Shown one piece after another: positions 27,650-36,947 of a DNA stretch of 64,000 nt. The stretch is from Candidatus Cloacimonadota bacterium. Its GTDB lineage: Bacteria; Cloacimonadota; Cloacimonadia; Cloacimonadales; TCS61. How positions within the stretch are numbered: position 1 is the stretch's first letter; each line of letters opens with the position of its first letter. Location of the stretch: contig JASUTE010000004.1 of NCBI GenBank assembly GCA_030445745.1, positions 1 through 64,000 of the forward strand, given 5' to 3'. Under the pieces are notes generated by a model. The model worked only from the letters and a program-made list of their open reading frames with translations. It did no database searches and was not told the origin of the DNA. Both the position numbers and the translations under genes were made by a program.

Positions 27650-27749
27650 TTGTTTTAAATGTTTATTTAGACTAAAAAACGTCAAACAAATTCCAATTCA
27701 CTTGACAGGAAAAGTGTTAGTTTTGTGATTTATACAAAGAGTATACGAT

Positions 27750-28292
27750 ATGAATTTGAATAAATTTTCGGCTGAAGAGCTGCTTTATATTGCTGTATTT
27801 AGCGCTTTGGGCTTGGCTACCAAACCCATTATAACACCGATAGTGCATCTGGTTTCTACACCATTGCTAATACCAGGCGGTTCACTAGCTGGTGGATTTT
27901 ATATGATGTGGATAGTGCTGGCAGCTGTAGTAGTTGATAAATTAGGAGCAGCGCTTTTAGTAGGTGTAGTACAGGCTATTGTAATCCTATCTTTAGGATT
28001 TTTTGGCAGCCATGGAGCTGTCTCACTACTCAGCTACACTGTTCCAGGTGTGATGGTGGAATTAGCTCGACTATTATTCAGGAACAAAGAAGCAGTGTTT
28101 GCACAAGCTTTTATGTGCTCTGTTGCTAATATTAGCGGAGCTTTAATAGTAACCTTGCTAGTGATGCGGCTACCTTTAATTCCATTAATTATATCTCTAC
28201 TGGCAGCTGCTATTTCGGGCATTATAGGTGGTTTAGTTAGCTATAATATAACTAAGAAAATGAGAAAATTTGGTATAATAGAGGTAAGATGA
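27750..28292 (+). CDS. ECF transporter substrate-binding (S) component
   Basis: A 180-residue membrane protein with about five or six helices, in the style of ECF S components; the 'GGSLAGGFYMMWIVLAAVVV' block and 'DKLGAALLVGVVQA' recall the YkoE branch (linked to thiamine precursors in Bacillus). The S component binds the vitamin or metal substrate and docks to EcfT. The substrate here cannot be named, and no TPP or other riboswitch is visible in the ~100-base upstream gap. TTGACA at 27702 is a possible -35. It is coupled by ATGA to the next gene and leads a 14-gene run. Confidence 0.82.
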   Translation: MNLNKFSAEELLYIAVFSALGLATKPIITPIVHLVSTPLLIPGGSLAGGFYMMWIVLAAVVVDKLGAALLVGVVQAIVILSLGFFGSHGAVSLLSYTVPGVMVELARLLFRNKEAVFAQAFMCSVANISGALIVTLLVMRLPLIPLIISLLAAAISGIIGGLVSYNITKKMRKFGIIEVR

Positions 28293-29161
28293 AGAAGCTT
28301 TTTATATTTTTGCTCTTAACTTGGAATATAGTGGCTTTTGCTTTACAAATTATTAATAACGAAAATGTACAGCAACTGGATTTACACAAAATTGATTCTC
28401 AATATTTGAAAACAGTTTCCACTATGCGTGAAAACCAAGCAGAGACCTGGCGTGGAGTGCCCTTGAACTACATTTTACCAGACAGTATAGAATTCAGTAA
28501 AATTGTACTAAGTTCTCCCGATGGCTATCAGGTAGAGTTGGCAAAAGAGGAGGCAGCTACAGCTATCTTAGCATTATTTGAAGATGAAAGAAAGTTGGAA
28601 TATGAAAACCGTTTGGTGGTACCTAGAAAAAGGGAGATGTTTTGGATAAAAGAAGTAACAAAAATAGAATTGAAGAATAAAGCAGTACAGCCACCTTTGC
28701 GATATATCACTATTGCCGAAAACTGGTTAAAAAATTTTTCCCAACCTCATGCTTTGCCACCTTTTGTGAAAGATACTGGTTATTACTTCCAAGAAGTAGC
28801 TAAATCTGTGTTGCTGTTTACCAGAGCGGAATATCTACTGATCGCTAGTGATGGGGTTCAACACAATTTAAGTTATCAGAATTATCTGCAAAATGCTATT
28901 TTAAGCCAGAACGGCAATGGTTTTGATATGAAAAGTCCCGATATGCCAAGCGGCATGTGGTTAAAAAAAATTGGCTATATTAGAACATACGATAGGGCAA
29001 TGGTGTTTGTGAACCAATTGCAAAATTGGCAAGATCTGCAGCAGTTAACAAAGTTGCCTAAAAAGCCGAAAAGAGTTGTAGTAGATGGCAACAGCTTTAG
29101 TTTTGAACAATTCAAGGATTTATCATGGGAAAATTGCGCATTTATACAATTATTTTATTAA
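28289..29161 (+). CDS. Exported protein with molybdopterin-oxidoreductase-like fold, lacking the Mo-ligand Cys
   Basis: A 290-residue protein with a signal peptide (MKKLFIFLLLTWNIVAFALQ). 'ETWRGVPLNYILPDS' and 'IVLSSPDGYQVELAKEEA' resemble the W-x-GVPL-x-x-[LI]L ... DGY pattern of the sulfite-oxidase/YedY molybdopterin domain. The only Cys lies near the C-terminus (WENCAF), so the usual Mo-coordinating Cys is absent and catalysis as a Mo enzyme is unlikely; the fold may have been reused for binding. The C-terminal part is not recognised. It sits between the ECF S component and a lipoprotein, overlapping both (4 and 37 bases), which suggests it works with the transporter on the outside of the inner membrane. 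Confidence 0.65.
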   Translation: MKKLFIFLLLTWNIVAFALQIINNENVQQLDLHKIDSQYLKTVSTMRENQAETWRGVPLNYILPDSIEFSKIVLSSPDGYQVELAKEEAATAILALFEDERKLEYENRLVVPRKREMFWIKEVTKIELKNKAVQPPLRYITIAENWLKNFSQPHALPPFVKDTGYYFQEVAKSVLLFTRAEYLLIASDGVQHNLSYQNYLQNAILSQNGNGFDMKSPDMPSGMWLKKIGYIRTYDRAMVFVNQLQNWQDLQQLTKLPKKPKRVVVDGNSFSFEQFKDLSWENCAFIQLFY

Positions 29162-29652
29162 TTTTTGCAACTGCCTGCAGTCCTGAAGGTTGGAAATTAA
29201 TCGATAGAGAAACAACAAAAATCAATCAATCAGGTAATTTAGCTGCTATTTTGGCTAAAGATACACAAATTCAATATGCATTATTGATTTCTGAAGATGG
29301 CTTGGGAATAGTTGTTTCCAAACCAAATTTTCAAAATATAAAGATCATAAATAAGAATGGTTGGCAGCTGCAAGCTCCACAATTGCCACCGAGTGCTAAT
29401 ATAAAAAACTTACAAAAGATTTGTGTGTTTTCAGATAATTATATTGAAATTTTCCAAGAAAATAAAAAATTTCTGCTTAGTCCTTTCCAAATTTATTTGC
29501 AGAATATGAAATTTGAAGGTGAAGCTTCGCAAAATGGCAATTTTATTAGGAAATATAGGAAAAGTAAGGAAGTGAATTTTAACGCAGACTCCATCTTTAT
29601 AAATTCACAGAAAATTAGCTGGGAAAGTTTAAGAAAGAGGATAGATCTATGA
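29125..29652 (+). CDS. Lipoprotein of unknown function in the ECF operon
   Basis: A 175-residue protein with a lipoprotein signal, LIFATACSPEGW, placing a lipidated Cys at about residue 18. The rest is a small, mostly beta-rich domain with no family I recognise. Its first 37 bases overlap the end of the preceding gene in another frame, and its stop overlaps the next start (ATGA). Position suggests a membrane-anchored accessory or binding protein for the ECF transporter; no direct sequence evidence supports a particular ligand. Confidence 0.72.
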   Translation: MGKLRIYTIILLIFATACSPEGWKLIDRETTKINQSGNLAAILAKDTQIQYALLISEDGLGIVVSKPNFQNIKIINKNGWQLQAPQLPPSANIKNLQKICVFSDNYIEIFQENKKFLLSPFQIYLQNMKFEGEASQNGNFIRKYRKSKEVNFNADSIFINSQKISWESLRKRIDL

Positions 29653-30074
29653 AAAATATTTTAATTGTTTTACTGGTTCTGATACTGCTTCTGGCTGCTA
29701 TGCTGGTAGTACGAAATATCAATCGTAGTGATTTTAACGGATTGAAGGTAGCTTATTTGGGCAGGGAATATCTTTTACAAAAAGACCACATCAACCAGCT
29801 TGAACTGCAAGTTTTATGGGCAGATAATCAGAAATTCCAAGCTATAAGCATAGATGAAGTTCTTAAATATTTTTCTTTGCACCCGAAAGATATTCGTACC
29901 ATTACCTTTGTATCGGCTGATGGTGGTGCCTTGAATTTGAAATCTGAAGAAATACATAAAGCTTTTTTAGCTTTACAGCGAGAAGGTAAACAGCAATACT
30001 TTCGGTTAATTATCCCCGAAGATGAATTTCGGCAGCGCTGGCTGAAAAGAGTGGTGGAACTGCAGGTTCGTTGA
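29649..30074 (+). CDS. Membrane-anchored small domain resembling the molybdopterin-oxidoreductase fold
   Basis: A 141-residue protein: one N-terminal helix ('ILIVLLVLILLLAAMLVV') and a ~110-residue outside domain. The pattern 'SIDEVLKYFSLHPKDIRTIT', then 'FVSADGGALNL', 'FRLIIPEDEF' and 'VVELQV' follows the order of blocks in the sulfite-oxidase-type Mo domain (E-V-L, S-x-DG, R-L-x-x-P, final strand). It contains no Cys at all, so it cannot hold Moco in the normal way. It appears to be a second, reduced version of the domain seen two genes upstream. Coupled by ATGA to the lipoprotein; its TGA abuts the EcfA1 start. Confidence 0.6.
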   Translation: MKNILIVLLVLILLLAAMLVVRNINRSDFNGLKVAYLGREYLLQKDHINQLELQVLWADNQKFQAISIDEVLKYFSLHPKDIRTITFVSADGGALNLKSEEIHKAFLALQREGKQQYFRLIIPEDEFRQRWLKRVVELQVR

Positions 30075-30721
30075 TGCTGAAGCTGGTTGACGTTAGTTTC
30101 GCTTTCGGAAAAAACCAACTACTCCATCATCTAGATTTGCAACTATTGCCAGGTGAAGCTGTATGGCTTCAGGGGCCTAATGCAAGTGGTAAAACAACAC
30201 TTTTAAATATTATAGCTACTATTATTCCCCGATTTATTCACGGTAACTTTTCAGGGCAGGTATTTTGGCAAGATACCAATTTGCATGAACTGAATTTCCC
30301 TCAAATAGCAACTGTATTAGGCTTTTTGCGTCAACATCCACAGCAGCAACTATTTTTTCCTAAAGTAGAACAAGAGTTGGCTTTTGGACCAGAAAATTTA
30401 CGAAAACCAGCAGAAGAGATTTTAGCAACTATGGAAGAAGTTTGCAATCAATTGCAAATAAACAGTTTATTGCAGGTTGAAACAGCTAAGCTCTCTTTTG
30501 GCCAAAAAAAGTTGGTGGCTTTGGCTGCCAATCTAATGCTGAAAGCACCAATATTACTTTTAGATGAACCAGCTGTGGGAATTTCCACAAATAATTTGCA
30601 TTTGATAAAACAGGTTTTGTTAAAGGAAAAAGAGAGAGGCAAAATACTTGTGATAGCGGATCATTTACCTGTATGGTATGACTTAGCAGACAGAATTTTA
30701 CCAATGAGTGAGCTGAGATGA
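30074..30721 (+). CDS. ECF transporter ATPase 1
   Basis: A 215-residue ABC ATPase, short for EcfA (about 270-280). It has Walker A GPNASGKTT, Q-loop region 'LGFLRQHPQQQLFFPKVEQELAFGPEN' typical of ECF ATPases, an altered signature LSFGQKK (from Leu140), Walker B ILLLDEPAVG and an intact H-loop His197 (IADH). The ATG at 30074 overlaps the upstream TGA; a TTG one codon earlier is less likely. It should pair with the next gene product. The degenerate signature matters because its partner has the opposite defect. Confidence 0.9.
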   Translation: MLKLVDVSFAFGKNQLLHHLDLQLLPGEAVWLQGPNASGKTTLLNIIATIIPRFIHGNFSGQVFWQDTNLHELNFPQIATVLGFLRQHPQQQLFFPKVEQELAFGPENLRKPAEEILATMEEVCNQLQINSLLQVETAKLSFGQKKLVALAANLMLKAPILLLDEPAVGISTNNLHLIKQVLLKEKERGKILVIADHLPVWYDLADRILPMSELR

Positions 30722-31356
30722 TAGAATTTAAAAATTTTAGCTTCAGTTTTCCAGAGCAGGAGATTTTTCGCGGGGTAAACCTGCGCTTTCCTTTGAAAAA
30801 ACCTGTTTTAATACAGGGAGATAATGGCAGTGGCAAAACTACCCTAGCACGCATCATCTCCGGGCTAATACCAGATTATTCCGGAGAAATTTTACTGAAG
30901 AAAAAGAAATTGGCGGATTTTACTGAAACCGAGTTTGCAGATAAGATTATCTACATAAAACAGGAAGCTGAGCAAAACTTTGTGGCAGCAACATTAGAAG
31001 AGGATCTGCAAATATGGCAGCATGGATTTTCTCAAATCGAGAAGGTGGGTGAGGAAAGATCGCGTAAAAAAACTTTCTCTAAATTAAAACTAACTGAAAT
31101 TTCCCAGCGCTTGATTTGGCAACTTAGTGGTGGCCAAAGAAAACGGGGTAGCTTAGCGCCGTTACTTTTGCCAAATAACAAAATCTGGTTGCTAGATGAA
31201 CCTGCTGCTGGCCTCGATGCACTATCTGTAAAGATATTATTGCAACTTTTAAAAGAAAAAAGGGCAATTATTTTTAGCAACAGAAAATCTATTTATGAAA
31301 GTTTAAACCCGCTTGAAATGGAGATAGTAGAAAAAAAAATAATTAGAATAAATTAA
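30718..31356 (+). CDS. ECF transporter ATPase 2
   Basis: A 212-residue ABC ATPase with Walker A GDNGSGKTT, Q-loop 'YIKQEAEQNFVAATLEEDL', canonical signature LSGGQRKRG (from Leu136) and Walker B IWLLDEPAAGLD. The H-loop reads IIFSNRKS, so the switch His is replaced (Asn188). With ATPase 1 this predicts one complete ATP site (A1 Walker/His plus A2 signature) and one degenerate site. ATPase 1 and 2 are coupled by ATGA. Confidence 0.9.
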   Translation: MIEFKNFSFSFPEQEIFRGVNLRFPLKKPVLIQGDNGSGKTTLARIISGLIPDYSGEILLKKKKLADFTETEFADKIIYIKQEAEQNFVAATLEEDLQIWQHGFSQIEKVGEERSRKKTFSKLKLTEISQRLIWQLSGGQRKRGSLAPLLLPNNKIWLLDEPAAGLDALSVKILLQLLKEKRAIIFSNRKSIYESLNPLEMEIVEKKIIRIN

Positions 31357-31456
31357 AATGCTTGCAAGATAGATGAAGATTTCTAAAAATATGTAGCAAC
31401 TTAGAAGGAGATAGCGAGATGTTGTTTTCGTTTAAAATTAGCTGTTCTGAGGTAGA
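31357..31456 (+). other. 100-base gap inside the ECF operon
   Basis: The only sizeable gap in the 27.7-37.5 kb run. No terminator or promoter with good -35/-10 boxes was seen; a GAGGTAGA ribosome binding site for ecfT lies at its end. Confidence 0.5.
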
Positions 31457-32188
31457 ATGAAGATTAATCTAAGAACGATACTTATCATTATTATTTTGCT
31501 TACTACCATCTCGTTACTATTTCAACAAGTTTTAGTTCAACTCTATCTAGTGCTAATTTCACTTGGCCTTATTCTGCTAAGTTCTCATCGAAAAAAAAAT
31601 ATGAAAAGTTTACAACAGCGTTTCCAAGGTTTAATAAAACTTTTTGTCATTCTGTTTTTGATGCAGATTATCTTTCGCAATGAAGGAAATGTTTATATGG
31701 AATGGGGCATTGTGAAAATAACAGACCAAGGTGTGAATTATGGGCTTATTTCCACATTGCGGATAACTTTAATAATATTGCTGGCAGCACTTTTGTTTCA
31801 ACGTCCCTTTTATGACTATCTACTGGCTTTTCATAGCTGGCATTTTCCCTATGAAATTTCTTTTCTTATAGCTTCTGTTATCAATTTTATTCCAACCTAC
31901 CGTTCCCAGTTTCTAACTATAAAGGAAAATTTGTATTTACGTGGCATATATTTTAGGAAATTAACGCTTTTTCAGCGTTTTCGAACTGTTTCTCAGTTAA
32001 TTTTTCCGGTACTCTCGCGCGCACTTTTACAAGTAAAAGACAGAGCTATAGCCTTGGAATTAAGAGGTTTTCGGTTATACAAAAATAGAACTTTTATCTA
32101 TGAACATAAATTAGCAGTTTGGGATTGGCTAATTCAGCTTTTCTGCCTGCTGCTTTTGGTATTTATTGTGAAAGGACAAATATTATGA
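31457..32188 (+). CDS. ECF transporter transmembrane (T) component
   Basis: A 243-residue membrane protein with N-terminal helices ('ILIIIILLTTISLLF', 'LVLISLGLILL'), two more in the middle and a C-terminal helix. The cytoplasmic coupling region carries the two x-R-G motifs expected in EcfT: 'NLYLRGIYF' (about 160) and 'ALELRGFRLY' (about 205), which dock into the ATPases. It completes the S-A1-A2-T set. The TGA overlaps the ATG of the AlaX gene (ATGA). Confidence 0.85.
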   Translation: MKINLRTILIIIILLTTISLLFQQVLVQLYLVLISLGLILLSSHRKKNMKSLQQRFQGLIKLFVILFLMQIIFRNEGNVYMEWGIVKITDQGVNYGLISTLRITLIILLAALLFQRPFYDYLLAFHSWHFPYEISFLIASVINFIPTYRSQFLTIKENLYLRGIYFRKLTLFQRFRTVSQLIFPVLSRALLQVKDRAIALELRGFRLYKNRTFIYEHKLAVWDWLIQLFCLLLLVFIVKGQIL

Positions 32189-32910
32189 ATCCACGGTTAT
32201 ATCAAATAGATAGTTACATGCGTGAATTTAATACGGAAGTGGTGGAGCACGACGCTGAGGTGAAAGCTTTAGCTTTAGCGCAAACGGCATTTTATCCAGG
32301 TGGGGGTGGACAACCCTGCGATACTGGTTGGCTTATATTTCCTAATAAAAAACTTCGTATTTGGCAGGTTAAAGTTCAGAATAGAAAGATTTGGCACTAT
32401 TATAAAGAAGATTTTCAATTAACCGATATACAGGTGCAGGGGAAACTGGATTGGGCGCGACGTTATGATTTGATGAGGACTCACACGGCTATGCATATTC
32501 TAAGTGCCGTAGCTTGGCAAGATTACCAGGTGCAGGTTACCGGAGGCAATATGGATGTTTTGCAGGGACATTTGGATTTCGAGTTTGAAACTCTTTCGGC
32601 TGAATTGATAGAGTCTTTAGAAATGAAGATAAATCAGGAAGTGAAAGAAGCACGTAGGATTGAAGTGAAGTTCTTAACCCGCGAGCAGGCAGAGAAAATT
32701 CCCGATCTTATTCGCACCAAGGTGAATTTATTACCAGCTAATTTGCAAAAGATACGAGTTGTAGAGATAGAGGGCTTAGATTTGCAGGCAGATGGTGGCA
32801 CTCATGTAAAAAATACTGCTGAGGTAGGCCAAATAGCTATAACCGGATATAAAAGTAAAGGAAAGAATAATAAACGTATTAAAATCGCTTTGAAAGAGGA
32901 GAAAATATGA
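32185..32910 (+). CDS. alaX: Alanyl-tRNA editing protein, AlaX type
   Basis: A 241-residue stand-alone editing domain that deacylates Ser- (or Gly-) tRNA-Ala. It shows the N-terminal AlaRS-like segment 'TAFYPGGGGQPCDTG', the zinc pair HTAMH (His100, His104) and 'LDLQADGGTHVKNTAEVG', where the usual CGGTH Cys is Asp, a variant I recall from other AlaX proteins. It lacks the catalytic domain of AlaRS. The start at 32185 overlaps the ecfT stop and follows AAAGGA; a longer frame starting at 32119 lies inside ecfT and is rejected. It is coupled by ATGA to the DUF6754 gene. Confidence 0.92.
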   Translation: MNPRLYQIDSYMREFNTEVVEHDAEVKALALAQTAFYPGGGGQPCDTGWLIFPNKKLRIWQVKVQNRKIWHYYKEDFQLTDIQVQGKLDWARRYDLMRTHTAMHILSAVAWQDYQVQVTGGNMDVLQGHLDFEFETLSAELIESLEMKINQEVKEARRIEVKFLTREQAEKIPDLIRTKVNLLPANLQKIRVVEIEGLDLQADGGTHVKNTAEVGQIAITGYKSKGKNNKRIKIALKEEKI

Positions 32911-34010
32911 GGAAATTTCTAATTTTTCTATTTCTGTTCTCTGCGGTGTTATGGGCGCAAAATTTAGATTTTACAGCAGAAGACAACCCCAATGATGACG
33001 GCAGTGCAATTTTGTTAAAATGGAATGCTGCTGAAATTGGAGCTGCTACTTTGCGCATAACAAAATTGGAAGAGAATGGTGATACTACCTTGGTTTATTT
33101 AAGTAGCGATGTAATTGGCCAATATATTCTAGGTGATGGCATTCAACCTAAAGTACCAGCTAATTTTAGGTTGCAGGCATTAGATGTTACTGGAAATATA
33201 TTAGCTGAAAAAGAGGTGACAGCTGTTGCTAAAGCCCAGTGGTTCAATACCAATAAAATCTCGTTGCTTATAATGGCTATTATTTTAACCGCTGCTATTG
33301 TTTACTATATCTTTTCAGCGCGAAGCGGTAAGGAACTTTACATAAGAAAAATAGCCGGTTTGGAATCAATCGATGAATCGGTGGGACGAGCTACTGAAAT
33401 GGGTCGGCCGATCTTGTTTATACCAGGCACATTGGATTTGGATGATATGCAAACTATTTCCGGACTTTCAATTTTAAGCAAACTAGCACAACGTGCAGCA
33501 GAATACGAAGCCAGATTGATTGTGCCGGTATGTCGTTCCATGGTTCTTTCCACAGCTAAAGAAGTGGTAAAAGAAGCATATTTGCGAGCTGGCCGTCCCG
33601 ATGCTTACGATCCGGATGCGGTGTTTTATCTTACTGATGACCAATTTGGCTTTGTGGCTGGGGTAGATGGAATTATAGTGCGTGAAAAACCAGCAGCTAA
33701 CTTCTTTTTGGGAGCTTTTTATGCGGAATCATTAATATTGGCTGAAACTGGTTTTGCCAGCGGTTCTATTCAAACTGCTGGAACCGCTATGCCCAGTCAG
33801 CTGCCTTTCTTTGTAGTTGCCTGCGATTACACCCTTATTGGTGAAGAGTTATTTGCAGCATCAGCCTATCTTAGCAAAGAACCGCATCAATTAGGAAGCC
33901 TGAAAGGTCAGGATTTAGGTAAAGCTATCTTTCTGGTAGTGTTAACTTTAGGAATTTTCCTGGAAATTATTGGTGTTCATTTCCTGAAAGATTTCCTAAC
34001 CATACATTGA
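32907..34010 (+). CDS. FnIII-like/DUF6754 membrane protein
   Basis: A 367-residue protein: a signal peptide (to about WAQ19), a short fibronectin III-like domain ('DNPNDDGSAILLKWN', about 25-105), one helix (about 118-135), a large alpha/beta domain, and a C-terminal helix ('AIFLVVLTLGIFLEIIGVHF'). The alpha/beta part, with 'GRPILFIPGTLDLDDMQTI', 'EARLIVPVCRSMVLSTAKEV', 'FGFVAGVDGIIVREKPAANF' and 'SGSIQTAGTAMPSQLPFFVV', matches what I know as DUF6754. No biochemical function is known. It heads four membrane genes that look like a complex. Confidence 0.78.
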   Translation: MRKFLIFLFLFSAVLWAQNLDFTAEDNPNDDGSAILLKWNAAEIGAATLRITKLEENGDTTLVYLSSDVIGQYILGDGIQPKVPANFRLQALDVTGNILAEKEVTAVAKAQWFNTNKISLLIMAIILTAAIVYYIFSARSGKELYIRKIAGLESIDESVGRATEMGRPILFIPGTLDLDDMQTISGLSILSKLAQRAAEYEARLIVPVCRSMVLSTAKEVVKEAYLRAGRPDAYDPDAVFYLTDDQFGFVAGVDGIIVREKPAANFFLGAFYAESLILAETGFASGSIQTAGTAMPSQLPFFVVACDYTLIGEELFAASAYLSKEPHQLGSLKGQDLGKAIFLVVLTLGIFLEIIGVHFLKDFLTIH

Positions 34011-34018
34011 GGTAGAAT

Positions 34019-34714
34019 ATGAAAAGAAATATACCACTTATAATTACTTTTTTAGTTGGGATTACCGTTATATTTTCCGAATTTATACCGCATTATCCTT
34101 TTGGAATGCTGAGTGGTGAGCTAGAAAATTGGTTTTTAATCATCTCAGGTTTTGCTATTCTTCTAGGACAACTCAGTCTATTTAAAGTAAATATCTTAAA
34201 AATTAAGTTCAAAAAAGAAAATTGGCAATATTCAGTTATCACATTGATAAGTGTGGTAGTTATGATAGGCACCGGTTTACTTTGGGGAACCAAAGATAAT
34301 ACTGGAATCTTGGGAAATGGTGATCAAATTATTGCTGTAATGGGTTCTAAGCCTTTTGATTATCTTTTTGATAACGTTTATCAGCATCTGCAAGCAACTA
34401 TGTTCAGCCTTTTAGCATTTTTCATCGCTTCAGCTGCCTACCGTGCTTTTATTGCCAGAACTACCGAATCCAATTTGTTGTTGATAGCTGCTATTTTAGT
34501 GATGCTAGGTAATACAAGTTTGGGTAGTTTTCTTACCAGTTGGATACCAGAAGCGATCAGTTTTCTACATTTGCCCAAATTAGCTGAATTCATAATGAAA
34601 TATCCTACAACAGCTGGGCAACGAGCTATAATGATTGGAGCTGGTTTAGGAATTATCGGTAGTTCACTAAGGATAATTCTGGGTATCGAACGTTCCTATT
34701 TAGGAGGTAAGTAA
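34019..34714 (+). CDS. Multi-pass membrane protein of the DUF6754 cluster
   Basis: A 231-residue integral membrane protein with about six helices (segments near 7-25, 36-52, 72-90, 125-143, 152-172 and 200-217). No catalytic motif or known transporter signature was seen. It lies 8 bases after the DUF6754 gene, behind GAGGTAG, and its TAA overlaps the next ATG (TAATG). It probably forms a membrane subunit of the cluster's complex. Confidence 0.75.
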   Translation: MKRNIPLIITFLVGITVIFSEFIPHYPFGMLSGELENWFLIISGFAILLGQLSLFKVNILKIKFKKENWQYSVITLISVVVMIGTGLLWGTKDNTGILGNGDQIIAVMGSKPFDYLFDNVYQHLQATMFSLLAFFIASAAYRAFIARTTESNLLLIAAILVMLGNTSLGSFLTSWIPEAISFLHLPKLAEFIMKYPTTAGQRAIMIGAGLGIIGSSLRIILGIERSYLGGK

Positions 34715-35541
34715 TGGCACAAAAAACTATAGATAGACGCTGGATATTTCTTTTGATCTTTATTGGAGTAGCGCTGCCGCTAATATTTATTATCGGATTA
34801 CCTATTGAAACCACAGAAAATGTGCGTATGGTGTACGAGATGGTAGAAAATACACCCCCGGGTTCTACAGTGCTTATCTCTTACGATTTCGATCCTGCTA
34901 GCCGACCAGAATTGTATCCCATGGGACTGGCATTGGTAGAGCATTGTTTCCAAAGAGATATCAAGGTTATTTTTACTGCCCTGTGGCCGATGGGCGTGCA
35001 GATGGCAGAGGATGTTTTGGATGTAATGCGCCAAAAATTTCCTAACAAAGAATATGGAGTTGATTATGTAAATGTAGGTTTCAAAGCAGGCGGAATTGTT
35101 ACGGTGCAGGCAATGGGTAAAAATTTTAGAGAAGTTTATCCTTCGGATATGAATGGCACACCAATTTCGGAAATTCCTATGCTGAGAGGTGTGAAAAATT
35201 TTGATAATTTAGCTTTTCTATTCTCGTTATCAGCAGGCTCTCCGGGTATTAAAGAATGGGTACAAATAGGGCATGATACTTATGGCAGACCTACCTCGGG
35301 TGGTGTAACCGGTGTTAGCGCTCCTTCTATTTTACCATATGTGAATGAACAGCAACAGCTTACGGGGCTACTAGCTGGCTTGAAAGCAGCAGCTGAATAT
35401 GAATTTTTAATGGATTCGCCTGGCTTGGCCACTAGTGGTATGGATGCACAATCGATTGCTCACCTTATCATTATAATTTTTATCATTATTGCTAATGTGA
35501 ATTACTGGCGCGCTAACAAAGCAGAGAAGGGAGGTAAATAA
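34714..35541 (+). CDS. Membrane-anchored alpha/beta protein of the DUF6754 cluster
   Basis: A 275-residue protein anchored at both ends (helices about 10-28 and 245-262), with a ~215-residue alpha/beta domain between them: 'PPGSTVLISYDFDPASRPEL', 'DIKVIFTALWPMGVQMAEDV', 'YGVDYVNVGFKAGGIVTVQA' and 'VQIGHDTYGRPTSGGVTGVS'. The arrangement echoes the alpha/beta part of the DUF6754 protein, so the two may be paired subunits. The family is not recognised. Coupled on both sides by TAATG. Confidence 0.75.
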   Translation: MAQKTIDRRWIFLLIFIGVALPLIFIIGLPIETTENVRMVYEMVENTPPGSTVLISYDFDPASRPELYPMGLALVEHCFQRDIKVIFTALWPMGVQMAEDVLDVMRQKFPNKEYGVDYVNVGFKAGGIVTVQAMGKNFREVYPSDMNGTPISEIPMLRGVKNFDNLAFLFSLSAGSPGIKEWVQIGHDTYGRPTSGGVTGVSAPSILPYVNEQQQLTGLLAGLKAAAEYEFLMDSPGLATSGMDAQSIAHLIIIIFIIIANVNYWRANKAEKGGK

Positions 35542-36182
35542 TGGTACATTTTTTCGAAGTATTGGGAATTTGGATAGGAGCATTGCTTACCTTTGCTATT
35601 TTTAGTTTTTTGTACAAAGATAATCCCTTTTACAAAGTAGCAGAACAGATTTTTGTTGGTCTCTCAGCCGGATACTGGTTTGTTTATACCATCTTCTTCA
35701 TTTTGTTGCCAAATATGTATAACCCTTTAACTGAAAATTTTGCAGCGAACTGGATAAAACTGATTCCAGCGTTATTAGGTGTGATGATGTTGATGCGGTT
35801 AATTCCCTCCATAGAATGGGTCAGTCGCTTTCCTATCGCTTTGGTAATAGGAACAACATCAGGTGTTTTCTTCTTACGCTATTTGAAATCAGATGTAATA
35901 AATCAGCTTACAGCCACTATTATGAATCCATTTTCTGGGAATAATACGGTGATGATTGTGGGGCAAATCTTGTTGGTAATAGGAACTTTTACGGGTGTAG
36001 TCTATTTCTATTTTAGTAAAAAGCATGAAGGTGCTTTTGGCGTAACTGCACGAATTGGAATTTATTTTCTAATGATTAGCTTTGGAGCAGCTTTTGGCTA
36101 CACGGCTATGGCACGTATATCTTTGCTGATTGGTCGTTTGCAGTTCCTGCTAGGAGATTGGCTGGGAATAATTCAACCTTAA
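35541..36182 (+). CDS. Multi-pass membrane protein, last of the DUF6754 cluster
   Basis: A 213-residue protein with about six or seven helices ('IWIGALLTFAIFSFLY', 'GYWFVYTIFFILLP', 'IALVIGTTSGVFFLRY', 'VGQILLVIGTFTGVVYFYF', 'IGIYFLMISFGAAFGYTAMA'). No signature motif was seen. It overlaps the previous stop by one base and ends 9 bases before the MobB-like gene. Function unknown; co-occurrence with the three preceding genes is the main clue. Confidence 0.75.
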   Translation: MVHFFEVLGIWIGALLTFAIFSFLYKDNPFYKVAEQIFVGLSAGYWFVYTIFFILLPNMYNPLTENFAANWIKLIPALLGVMMLMRLIPSIEWVSRFPIALVIGTTSGVFFLRYLKSDVINQLTATIMNPFSGNNTVMIVGQILLVIGTFTGVVYFYFSKKHEGAFGVTARIGIYFLMISFGAAFGYTAMARISLLIGRLQFLLGDWLGIIQP

Positions 36183-36191
36183 GGAAAAAAT

Positions 36192-36947
36192 ATGAAAGTT
36201 TTTAGTGTTGCCGGCTATCATCATACAGGTAAAACTGCTGTTGTAACCTCTTTGCTAAAAGAATTGGGAAAGCGTGGTTACAGCGTTTCTTCCATTAAAG
36301 ATATTCACAATGAAGAATTTTCGCTGGAAAAACCAAACTCTAATAGTTGGCAACACTGGCAAGCTAGTGGGGGTGTTGTATTTGCCCGCGGAAAAAAGGA
36401 AACTTATCAGATTTGGCATCAGCATCTTAGTTTGAACCAAATGTTAAGACATTTGCAAACAGATTATGTAGTAATAGAAGGTATGAAAACAGCTGCTGTA
36501 CCACATATTATTTGCGCAGAAAATTCCATAGAACTAGACGAATTAGTAGATGAGACTACTTTTGCTATTTCTGGCAAGTATGCCAATGGCCACCAGAAAT
36601 ATAAAGATCTGCCCGTAATAAATGCAAAGCATGAAATAGAACATTTGGCAGATCTGGTAGAAAATAAGGTATTTGCTGTTTTACCACTAGCAGACCCCAA
36701 ATGTTGTCAGGCTTGCGGTATGAGCTGTTATCAGATGACTGGAGCTATATTGCGGGGTGAAAAAAGACGTTCTGATTGTGTTTTAGATAATTCATCTAAA
36801 CAAATTGTACTTAAAATTGATGGTCGTGAAGAAAAGGTAGTTCCATTTGTACAAAATTTGCTAAAAGACGCCATAACTTCATTGGTTCGTAATTTAAAAG
36901 GCTGTCAACATGGTAAGATCGAGATAGAGATACAAGATGAAGACTAA
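36192..36947 (+). CDS. mobB: MobB-like GTPase with a C-terminal cysteine cluster
   Basis: A 251-residue protein. The N-terminal ~165 residues are a MobB-type P-loop domain ('VFSVAGYHHTGKTAVVTSLL', Walker A GYHHTGKT at 8-15; 'YVVIEGMK', about 92-99), the family that assists insertion of guanine nucleotide into molybdopterin. After it come five Cys residues (171, 172, 175, 179 and 196) in 'DPKCCQACGMSCYQMTGAIL' followed by GEKRRSDC, an arrangement that could bind an Fe-S cluster or metal and that I associate with some archaeal MobB-like proteins. No other Moco gene is in the window, so a role outside Moco maturation is possible. Confidence 0.8.
   Translation: MKVFSVAGYHHTGKTAVVTSLLKELGKRGYSVSSIKDIHNEEFSLEKPNSNSWQHWQASGGVVFARGKKETYQIWHQHLSLNQMLRHLQTDYVVIEGMKTAAVPHIICAENSIELDELVDETTFAISGKYANGHQKYKDLPVINAKHEIEHLADLVENKVFAVLPLADPKCCQACGMSCYQMTGAILRGEKRRSDCVLDNSSKQIVLKIDGREEKVVPFVQNLLKDAITSLVRNLKGCQHGKIEIEIQDED

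Follow-up and report, generated by a model that had tools for sequence, protein, structure and literature searches.

The prevailing view holds that each cell in need of the molybdenum cofactor (Moco) must make it, the known exception being the nematode Caenorhabditis elegans, which acquires Moco, bound to protein, from the bacteria that it eats, through a route that is unknown (PMC9793310). A bacterial transporter for Moco or molybdopterin is not described in the literature that we searched, which was thin on subscription journals and preprints. Here we analyse a gene cassette in a 64,000-nucleotide stretch (the window) of a Candidatus Cloacimonadota genome, in which an importer of the energy-coupling factor (ECF) type is joined to outward-facing proteins with a cysteine-free sulfite oxidase (SUOX) fold. 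Its core resembles the Group I ECF transporters of the YkoEDC type, which likewise hold a PF09819 S component, two ATPases and a T component in one operon; to our knowledge, neither a receptor nor extracytoplasmic binding proteins nor a Moco riboswitch form part of known ECF importers. The accessory fold has its closest described counterpart in PruR, a periplasmic protein for the binding of reduced pterins, which adopts the SUOX fold but lacks the Mo-ligand Cys (PMC13259868). Thus, the ECF core is already known as a kind and the accessory fold from PruR, while neither the combination of an ECF importer, PruR-like proteins and a Moco riboswitch nor the substrate that we propose was found described in the literature searched. 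We propose, with a probability of about 0.68, that the cassette imports a pterin-based molybdenum or tungsten (Mo/W) cofactor, as Moco, its tungsten counterpart Wco, or molybdopterin, and so replaces its biosynthesis.

The window is contig C6 of a 2.04 Mb genome (G000, 99.3% complete) whose relatives are Cloacimonadota. Seven open reading frames, all on the + strand, were confirmed at their expected coordinates in the tight order S-M1-Lp-M2-A1-A2-T; they encode all components of an ECF importer, plus three accessory proteins that are exported. The S component (27750..28292, 180 amino acids), a membrane substrate-binding subunit, matches the YkoE-type family PF09819 (E 2.5e-14; 53.9 bits against a cut-off of 25.2) and is 39-66% identical to 26 orthologues; neither its single sequence nor its profile matches a solved structure, and therefore its substrate cannot be read from a relative. 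The ECF ATPases A1 (30074..30721) and A2 (30718..31356) match PF00005 at E 3e-21 and E 1e-24, with intact Walker A and signature motifs (GPNASGKTT and LSFGQ in A1, GDNGSGKTT and LSGGQ in A2), while the CbiQ-family T component (31457..32188) matches PF02361 (CbiQ/EcfT) at E 1.4e-17 (64.5 bits against a cut-off of 25) and carries a readable ALELRGF motif. Between S and A1 lie M1 (28289..29161, 290 amino acids), Lp (29125..29652, 175 amino acids) and M2 (29649..30074, 141 amino acids); their sequences show a signal peptide in M1, a lipobox (FATAC) in Lp and a membrane anchor at the N-terminus of M2, so that all three should face outwards. The junctions S/M1, Lp/M2 and A1/A2 are ATGA overlaps, M1 and Lp overlap by 37 nt, and M2 and A1 by 1 nt, provided that ATG 30074 is the start of A1, which from the sequence is more likely than the TTG listed at 30071. 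The sole uncoupled junction is A2/T, whose 100-nt gap (31357..31456) is occupied in many relatives by a gene for a TonB-dependent receptor of 628-648 amino acids. A sequence-only reading of the locus had claimed that S, A1, A2 and T genes enclose three coupled, outward-facing genes and that nearly every junction is a start/stop overlap: by Pfam and sequence reading all the frames are indeed there, and the overlaps hold everywhere except at A2/T.

That reading had also seen the Mo domain of sulfite oxidases, without its Mo-ligand Cys, in two of the three accessory proteins. The resemblance is real for M1 and M2, but Lp is probably a third case by Foldseek, and M1 has to be redrawn as two tandem domains (about residues 19-138 and 150-245) on the evidence of alignment, model and hhalign. 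An AlphaFold2 model of M1 from 34 sequences (pLDDT 90.9) has SorA sulfite dehydrogenase as its best Foldseek match among solved structures (2.4e-6); the PruR structures 7kom, 7rkb and 7kos match at 3e-6 to 9e-5 with TM-scores on the target of 0.61-0.68 (3.2e-6 and 0.68 for 7kom, 1.6e-5 for the neopterin-bound 7rkb), and YedY comes next. At the profile level, PF00174 is weak in the window M1 (E 0.006) and matches 30 of 34 M1 orthologues singly, one of them with 38.8 bits (cut-off 24); the SorA and SoxC models match as well. The best-scoring fold and profile matches of M1 are thus with the sulfite oxidase family (SorA, SoxC, YedY/MsrP). As the PF00174 match begins at about model position 55-69, the segment of the Mo-ligand Cys is left unmatched. 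The absence of this Cys was correctly noted, for neither the M1 nor the M2 alignment has a conserved one, M2 being free of Cys altogether and the sole Cys of M1 lying near the C-terminus and not being conserved. M1 and M2 share with PruR (PDB 7KOM, 7KOS, 7RKB) a Cys-free SUOX fold outside the cytoplasm and a similar domain size. In the alignment a tyrosine of PruR falls on the invariant Tyr80 of M1; Trp119 of M1 is also invariant, and the PruR alignments stop short of it.

The assignment of M2 to this fold comes from hhalign, which aligns it to the first domain of M1 with a probability of 98.1 (E 7e-14) and more weakly to the second (E 1.4e-5); the M2 profile alone matched no solved structure. 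An AlphaFold2 model of the window Lp (pLDDT 89.0) retrieves nitrate reductase, sulfite dehydrogenase and YedY as top Foldseek matches, with probabilities of up to 1.0 and E of 0.03-0.1. Since hhalign of Lp against M1 and M2 is weak (E 0.002-0.4), the fold assignment of Lp rests on structure comparison, from which it is likely, although not certain, that Lp belongs to the SUOX fold. Checking predicted structures against the Mo-domain fold had been suggested earlier, and the M1 and Lp models do match it. The SUOX-like domains of the cassette, being half-size and without the Mo-ligand Cys segment, are not expected to be enzymes. Elsewhere in the window genome, a full-length PF00174 protein (L231:6176-6838, contig C15) has TSVTRWS at the expected place of the Mo-ligand Cys, apparently with no Cys.

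A profile of M1 finds the protein in 72 of 125 genomes of the phylum Cloacimonadota; with this spread and the gene order kept, chance occurrence of the M1 cassette is ruled out. A scan of named genomes returned Cloacimonadota records only, plus one titled Armatimonadetes (L072, JABMPU010000011.1), which is probably a mislabel. A survey of neighbourhoods, proposed as a check with the first reading of the locus, shows that throughout the phylum the accessory genes accompany those of the ECF importer, with their order unchanged. Many loci hold nine genes in one order, UpL-S-M1-Lp-M2-A1-A2-TB-T, where the lipoprotein UpL is a relative of M2 (probability 88.6 and E 2.7e-6 in hhalign) and TB is the TonB-dependent receptor, with a plug domain (PF07715) that matches BtuB and the colicin I receptor and a barrel whose sequence gives no ligand assignment. 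In one family (f10) that includes the Cloacimonas-type genomes the cassette is split, with S-M1-A-A-T apart from UpL-TB and a riboswitch, and two genomes (G030, G040) keep S, A and T although M1 is missing. A plug-domain receptor beside a dedicated importer recalls the BtuB/TonB arrangement for cobalamin and haem, but the importer here is of the ECF and not the BtuCDF type. Cobalamin import, prompted by the BtuB-like plug and one cobalamin riboswitch (L092), was rejected because that riboswitch lies on the opposite strand and does not recur, whereas a Moco riboswitch does; haem or siderophore import was rejected as well, having nothing in its favour beyond generic plug-domain matches.

Two further features of the relatives bear on the substrate. 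In L024, L033, L035, L047 and others, Lp is longer (420-449 amino acids) because a second domain follows, which is PF01663 in L024, L033 and L035, the three that were checked. The long-Lp profile matches ENPP enzymes, with DG, YPSKT, HSVDDxxH and SDHG motifs aligned to them, and the window Lp corresponds by alignment to the N-terminal part of the long form. Moreover, an orthologue of MobB, a family of molybdopterin dinucleotide metabolism, adjoins T in L024/L064 and L035 and lies downstream of T on the same contig in L058. The window has its own MobB-family gene (36192..36947, + strand), which scores 383 bits with a hidden Markov model of the T-adjacent orthologues, matches PF03205 at E 1.2e-18 and exceeds the cut-off of NCBIfam mobB.

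The clearest link to the cofactor is regulatory. Riboswitches, enzymes and biosynthesis genes were counted in 59 genomes. RF01055, the Mo/W cofactor riboswitch, occurs in 38 of the 59 relatives, and a downstream gene was located for 41 matches. Of these, 29, from 26 genomes and scoring above the gathering cut-off, immediately precede the cassette (UpL, S or TB); the remainder precede genes for aldehyde ferredoxin oxidoreductase (AFOR), aldehyde dehydrogenase, tungstate-binding proteins and a few others. The riboswitch is found in 31 of 35 genomes with M1 versus 7 of 24 without (Fisher p 4e-6, in a test that ignores phylogeny). Stem P3 is absent from 18 of 19 displayed aptamers, and the P3-lacking type of Moco RNA has been tied to the tungsten cofactor (Regulski 2008, PMC2408646). 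The described regulons of Moco RNAs comprise genes for Mo/W uptake, cofactor synthesis and enzymes (PMC2408646). The cassette resembles them in that the riboswitch precedes Mo/W-related genes, but the genes under its control are, for most of these genomes, those of an import cassette and not moa/moe genes. The two arrangements meet within the phylum: in G002 the riboswitch precedes tupA (tungstate), followed by transporter genes, moeA, moaA, moaC, MOSC and mogA, and in G041 it heads wtpA (tungstate) with transporter genes. Thus, the riboswitch stands on metal uptake and synthesis where the cofactor can be made, and on the cassette where it cannot.

This regulation bears on two other explanations. 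The match of S to PF09819 (YkoE) would be compatible with a thiamine or hydroxymethylpyrimidine (HMP) type importer whose accessory proteins are decorative, but we consider this very unlikely, given that no thiamine pyrophosphate riboswitch was found in the loci scanned while the Moco riboswitch recurs, that a second ECF set of the window genome is free for the thiamine/HMP role, and that the SUOX/PruR domains and MobB would be left unexplained. Perhaps, alternatively, the accessory proteins are redox proteins or, like PruR, sensors of pterins, and regulate the uptake of some unrelated vitamin by the ECF importer. PruR itself acts in signalling, its one domain communicating with the DcpA/DTB signalling proteins, whereas the cassette has up to four such proteins, each with one or two domains, and couples them to an ECF importer. 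Such a role has very little probability in our estimate: no signalling partner was seen in the cassettes, including any dcpA/DTB regulator gene, the coupling of the domains to S, A and T genes keeps one order throughout the phylum, and the riboswitch places the operon under the control of the cofactor.

Outside the cassette, the riboswitch stands before aldehyde dehydrogenase family genes at four loci, namely L151:5376-7001 (G043; PF00171, E 4e-101) and, alike to it by their N-termini, L158:4538-6208 (G050), L159:3980-5605 (G053) and L160:4196-5875 (G036); possibly this enzyme is a cofactor-free stand-in for AFOR when the cofactor is scarce. At L154, L155, L156 and L162 the riboswitch lies directly upstream of AFOR genes, and at L155 small ThiS- and ThiF-family genes follow AFOR.

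The hosts appear, from their gene content, to use a Mo/W cofactor that they cannot make, exceptions aside, the inability being judged by the absence of known families. AFOR is present in 45 of the 59 genomes, enzymes of the xanthine dehydrogenase (XDH) type (MoCoBD_1) in 47, and strong PF00384 matches of formate dehydrogenase (FDH) size in 21. At least one Mo/W-cofactor enzyme family occurs in 56 genomes, and 53 of these 56 lack both MoaC and MoeA. Of the synthesis families themselves, MoaC is found in three of 59 genomes (G002, G015, G041), MoeA in two, a MoaA C-terminal match in two and MoaE in none, although the search works, since all four families were found in 11 of 14 control genomes. 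None of the MoaC genomes has M1 (MoaC in 0/35 genomes with M1 versus 3/24 without, which is the expected direction; p 0.06, with few MoaC genomes). AFOR or FDH occurs in 34/35 genomes with M1 versus 15/24 without (Fisher p 0.0008, again ignoring phylogeny). Several of the FDH-size PF00384 proteins have one in-frame TGA (for example in G008, G011, G012, G014, G017 and G019), which is probably selenocysteine. By Pfam, the loci G002:C17 (L148) and G041:C124 (L153) hold MoaA, MoaC, MoeA and MogA, with MoaE missing.

It is against this background that import of the metal has to be weighed, that is, of tungstate or molybdate on a carrier or chelate, with the pterin made by an unrecognised route. The same riboswitch does control TupA in G002 and WtpA in G041, both genomes without M1, and a receptor combined with an ECF importer is known for metals. 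But nearly every genome lacks MoaA, MoaC, MoaE and MoeA all at once, and therefore metal alone would not help; in addition, the accessory fold is a pterin-binding one and S belongs to PF09819 rather than to the CbiM/NikM metal family. We thus regard metal import as improbable, at about one chance in ten.

The receptor, UpL and pyrophosphatase domain of the relatives, the Moco riboswitch and the missing biosynthesis genes had all escaped the sequence-only reading, and together they point to a substrate. Its suggestion that the fold may bind the substrate is, on our analysis, now the best-supported reading. We infer the substrate, the order of hand-over and the pyrophosphatase reaction from what was computed directly, namely composition, gene order, fold, riboswitch position and missing biosynthesis. 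In the scheme that we favour, the cofactor, possibly arriving as a dinucleotide released by other microbes, would be carried over the outer membrane by the TonB-dependent receptor, and the long Lp would strip the nucleotide with its ENPP-type pyrophosphatase domain. The cysteine-free SUOX/PruR-like domains of UpL, M1, Lp and M2 would bind the pterin without acting on it as enzymes and deliver it to S, whereupon A1, A2 and T would drive import with ATP-driven release inside, where MobB and related proteins might add the nucleotide back. The riboswitch would turn the operon on when the cofactor is scarce. As MoeA is missing too, it is more economical to guess that the cofactor comes loaded with metal than that it comes as metal-free molybdopterin. 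That these parts make up a complete bacterial salvage pathway for the intact Mo/W cofactor, from receptor through pyrophosphatase lipoprotein, PruR-like carriers and ECF importer to riboswitch control, we consider only slightly more probable than the contrary. It is also conceivable that another pterin or a precursor is imported, for instance a reduced pterin or cyclic pyranopterin monophosphate, for cofactor or folate. PruR binds small reduced pterins in a site that seems too small for Moco, and a riboswitch that reports cofactor status is compatible with precursor import; yet MoaE and MoeA, which lead from the cyclic precursor to Moco, are absent, and a nucleotide pyrophosphatase and MobB better fit nucleotide forms of the finished cofactor, such that we deem this alternative unlikely, at roughly one chance in seven.

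Several points weigh against import of the finished cofactor. In other settings the S family PF09819 is associated with precursors of thiamine, and free Moco is unstable, so that the transported form is uncertain. The truncated site of PruR probably cannot hold full Moco (PMC13259868), and M1 and M2 might therefore bind a smaller pterin or a part of the cofactor. The window copy itself is reduced: RF01055 is found neither in the window nor in its genome, there is no receptor between A2 and T, UpL was not found in the window genome, the pyrophosphatase domain is missing from Lp, and AFOR and FDH-type enzymes were not found in this genome. Among the other genomes, 10 with AFOR or FDH have neither MoaC nor a detected cassette, and G010, G018, G035, G045, G046 and G056 have XDH-type enzymes without MoaC/MoeA and M1; several genomes without M1, for example G035 and G056, have enzymes of the XDH type only. 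Incomplete metagenome-assembled genomes account for some of these cassette-less, MoaC-less cases at best. Furthermore, G002 and G041 look like cofactor makers yet have no MoaE, and the phylum may therefore use unrecognised enzymes. Taken together, the small PruR site, the reduced window copy, the cassette-less genomes and the absent MoaE leave room for such enzymes.

If cofactor import is nonetheless correct, the Mo/W cofactor would be a vitamin for most of a bacterial phylum, shared between microbes. A dedicated importer would explain how a phylum of anaerobes runs W/Mo enzymes without biosynthesis genes, and the cofactor would become a good that anaerobic communities share. A substrate would also be assigned to an ECF branch that is new, and the PruR fold would have a part in transport in addition to sensing, and the cassette would supply a directly testable set of carrier proteins.

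The window copy keeps S, M1, a short Lp, M2, A1, A2, T and a nearby mobB. It probably lost its riboswitch, because a relative of the same family with the same divergent dinB (G009, L033) holds a Moco riboswitch between dinB and S, where the window has an intergenic stretch (27650..27749) with none detectable. Three other TonB receptors in the window genome have weak similarity to TB. With G002 and G041 proteins as queries, MoeA, MoaC, MOSC, MogA and a Mo/W-binding protein were not found in this genome; a TupA-like match turned out to be PstS and thus no tungstate-binding protein. Its two XDH-type Mo enzymes lie in one cluster, which we take to be a selenium-dependent purine cluster from its appearance. 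The second ECF set (L258:6036-12844, contig C33) comprises S, fused ATPases and T, has weak similarity to the S and T of the cassette, lies near a TonB receptor gene on the opposite strand and is perhaps of the thiamine/HMP type. Finally, a four-gene block at 32907-36182 of the window, its first gene encoding DUF6754, separates alaX from mobB, and several relatives have the first two genes of the block downstream of T as well.

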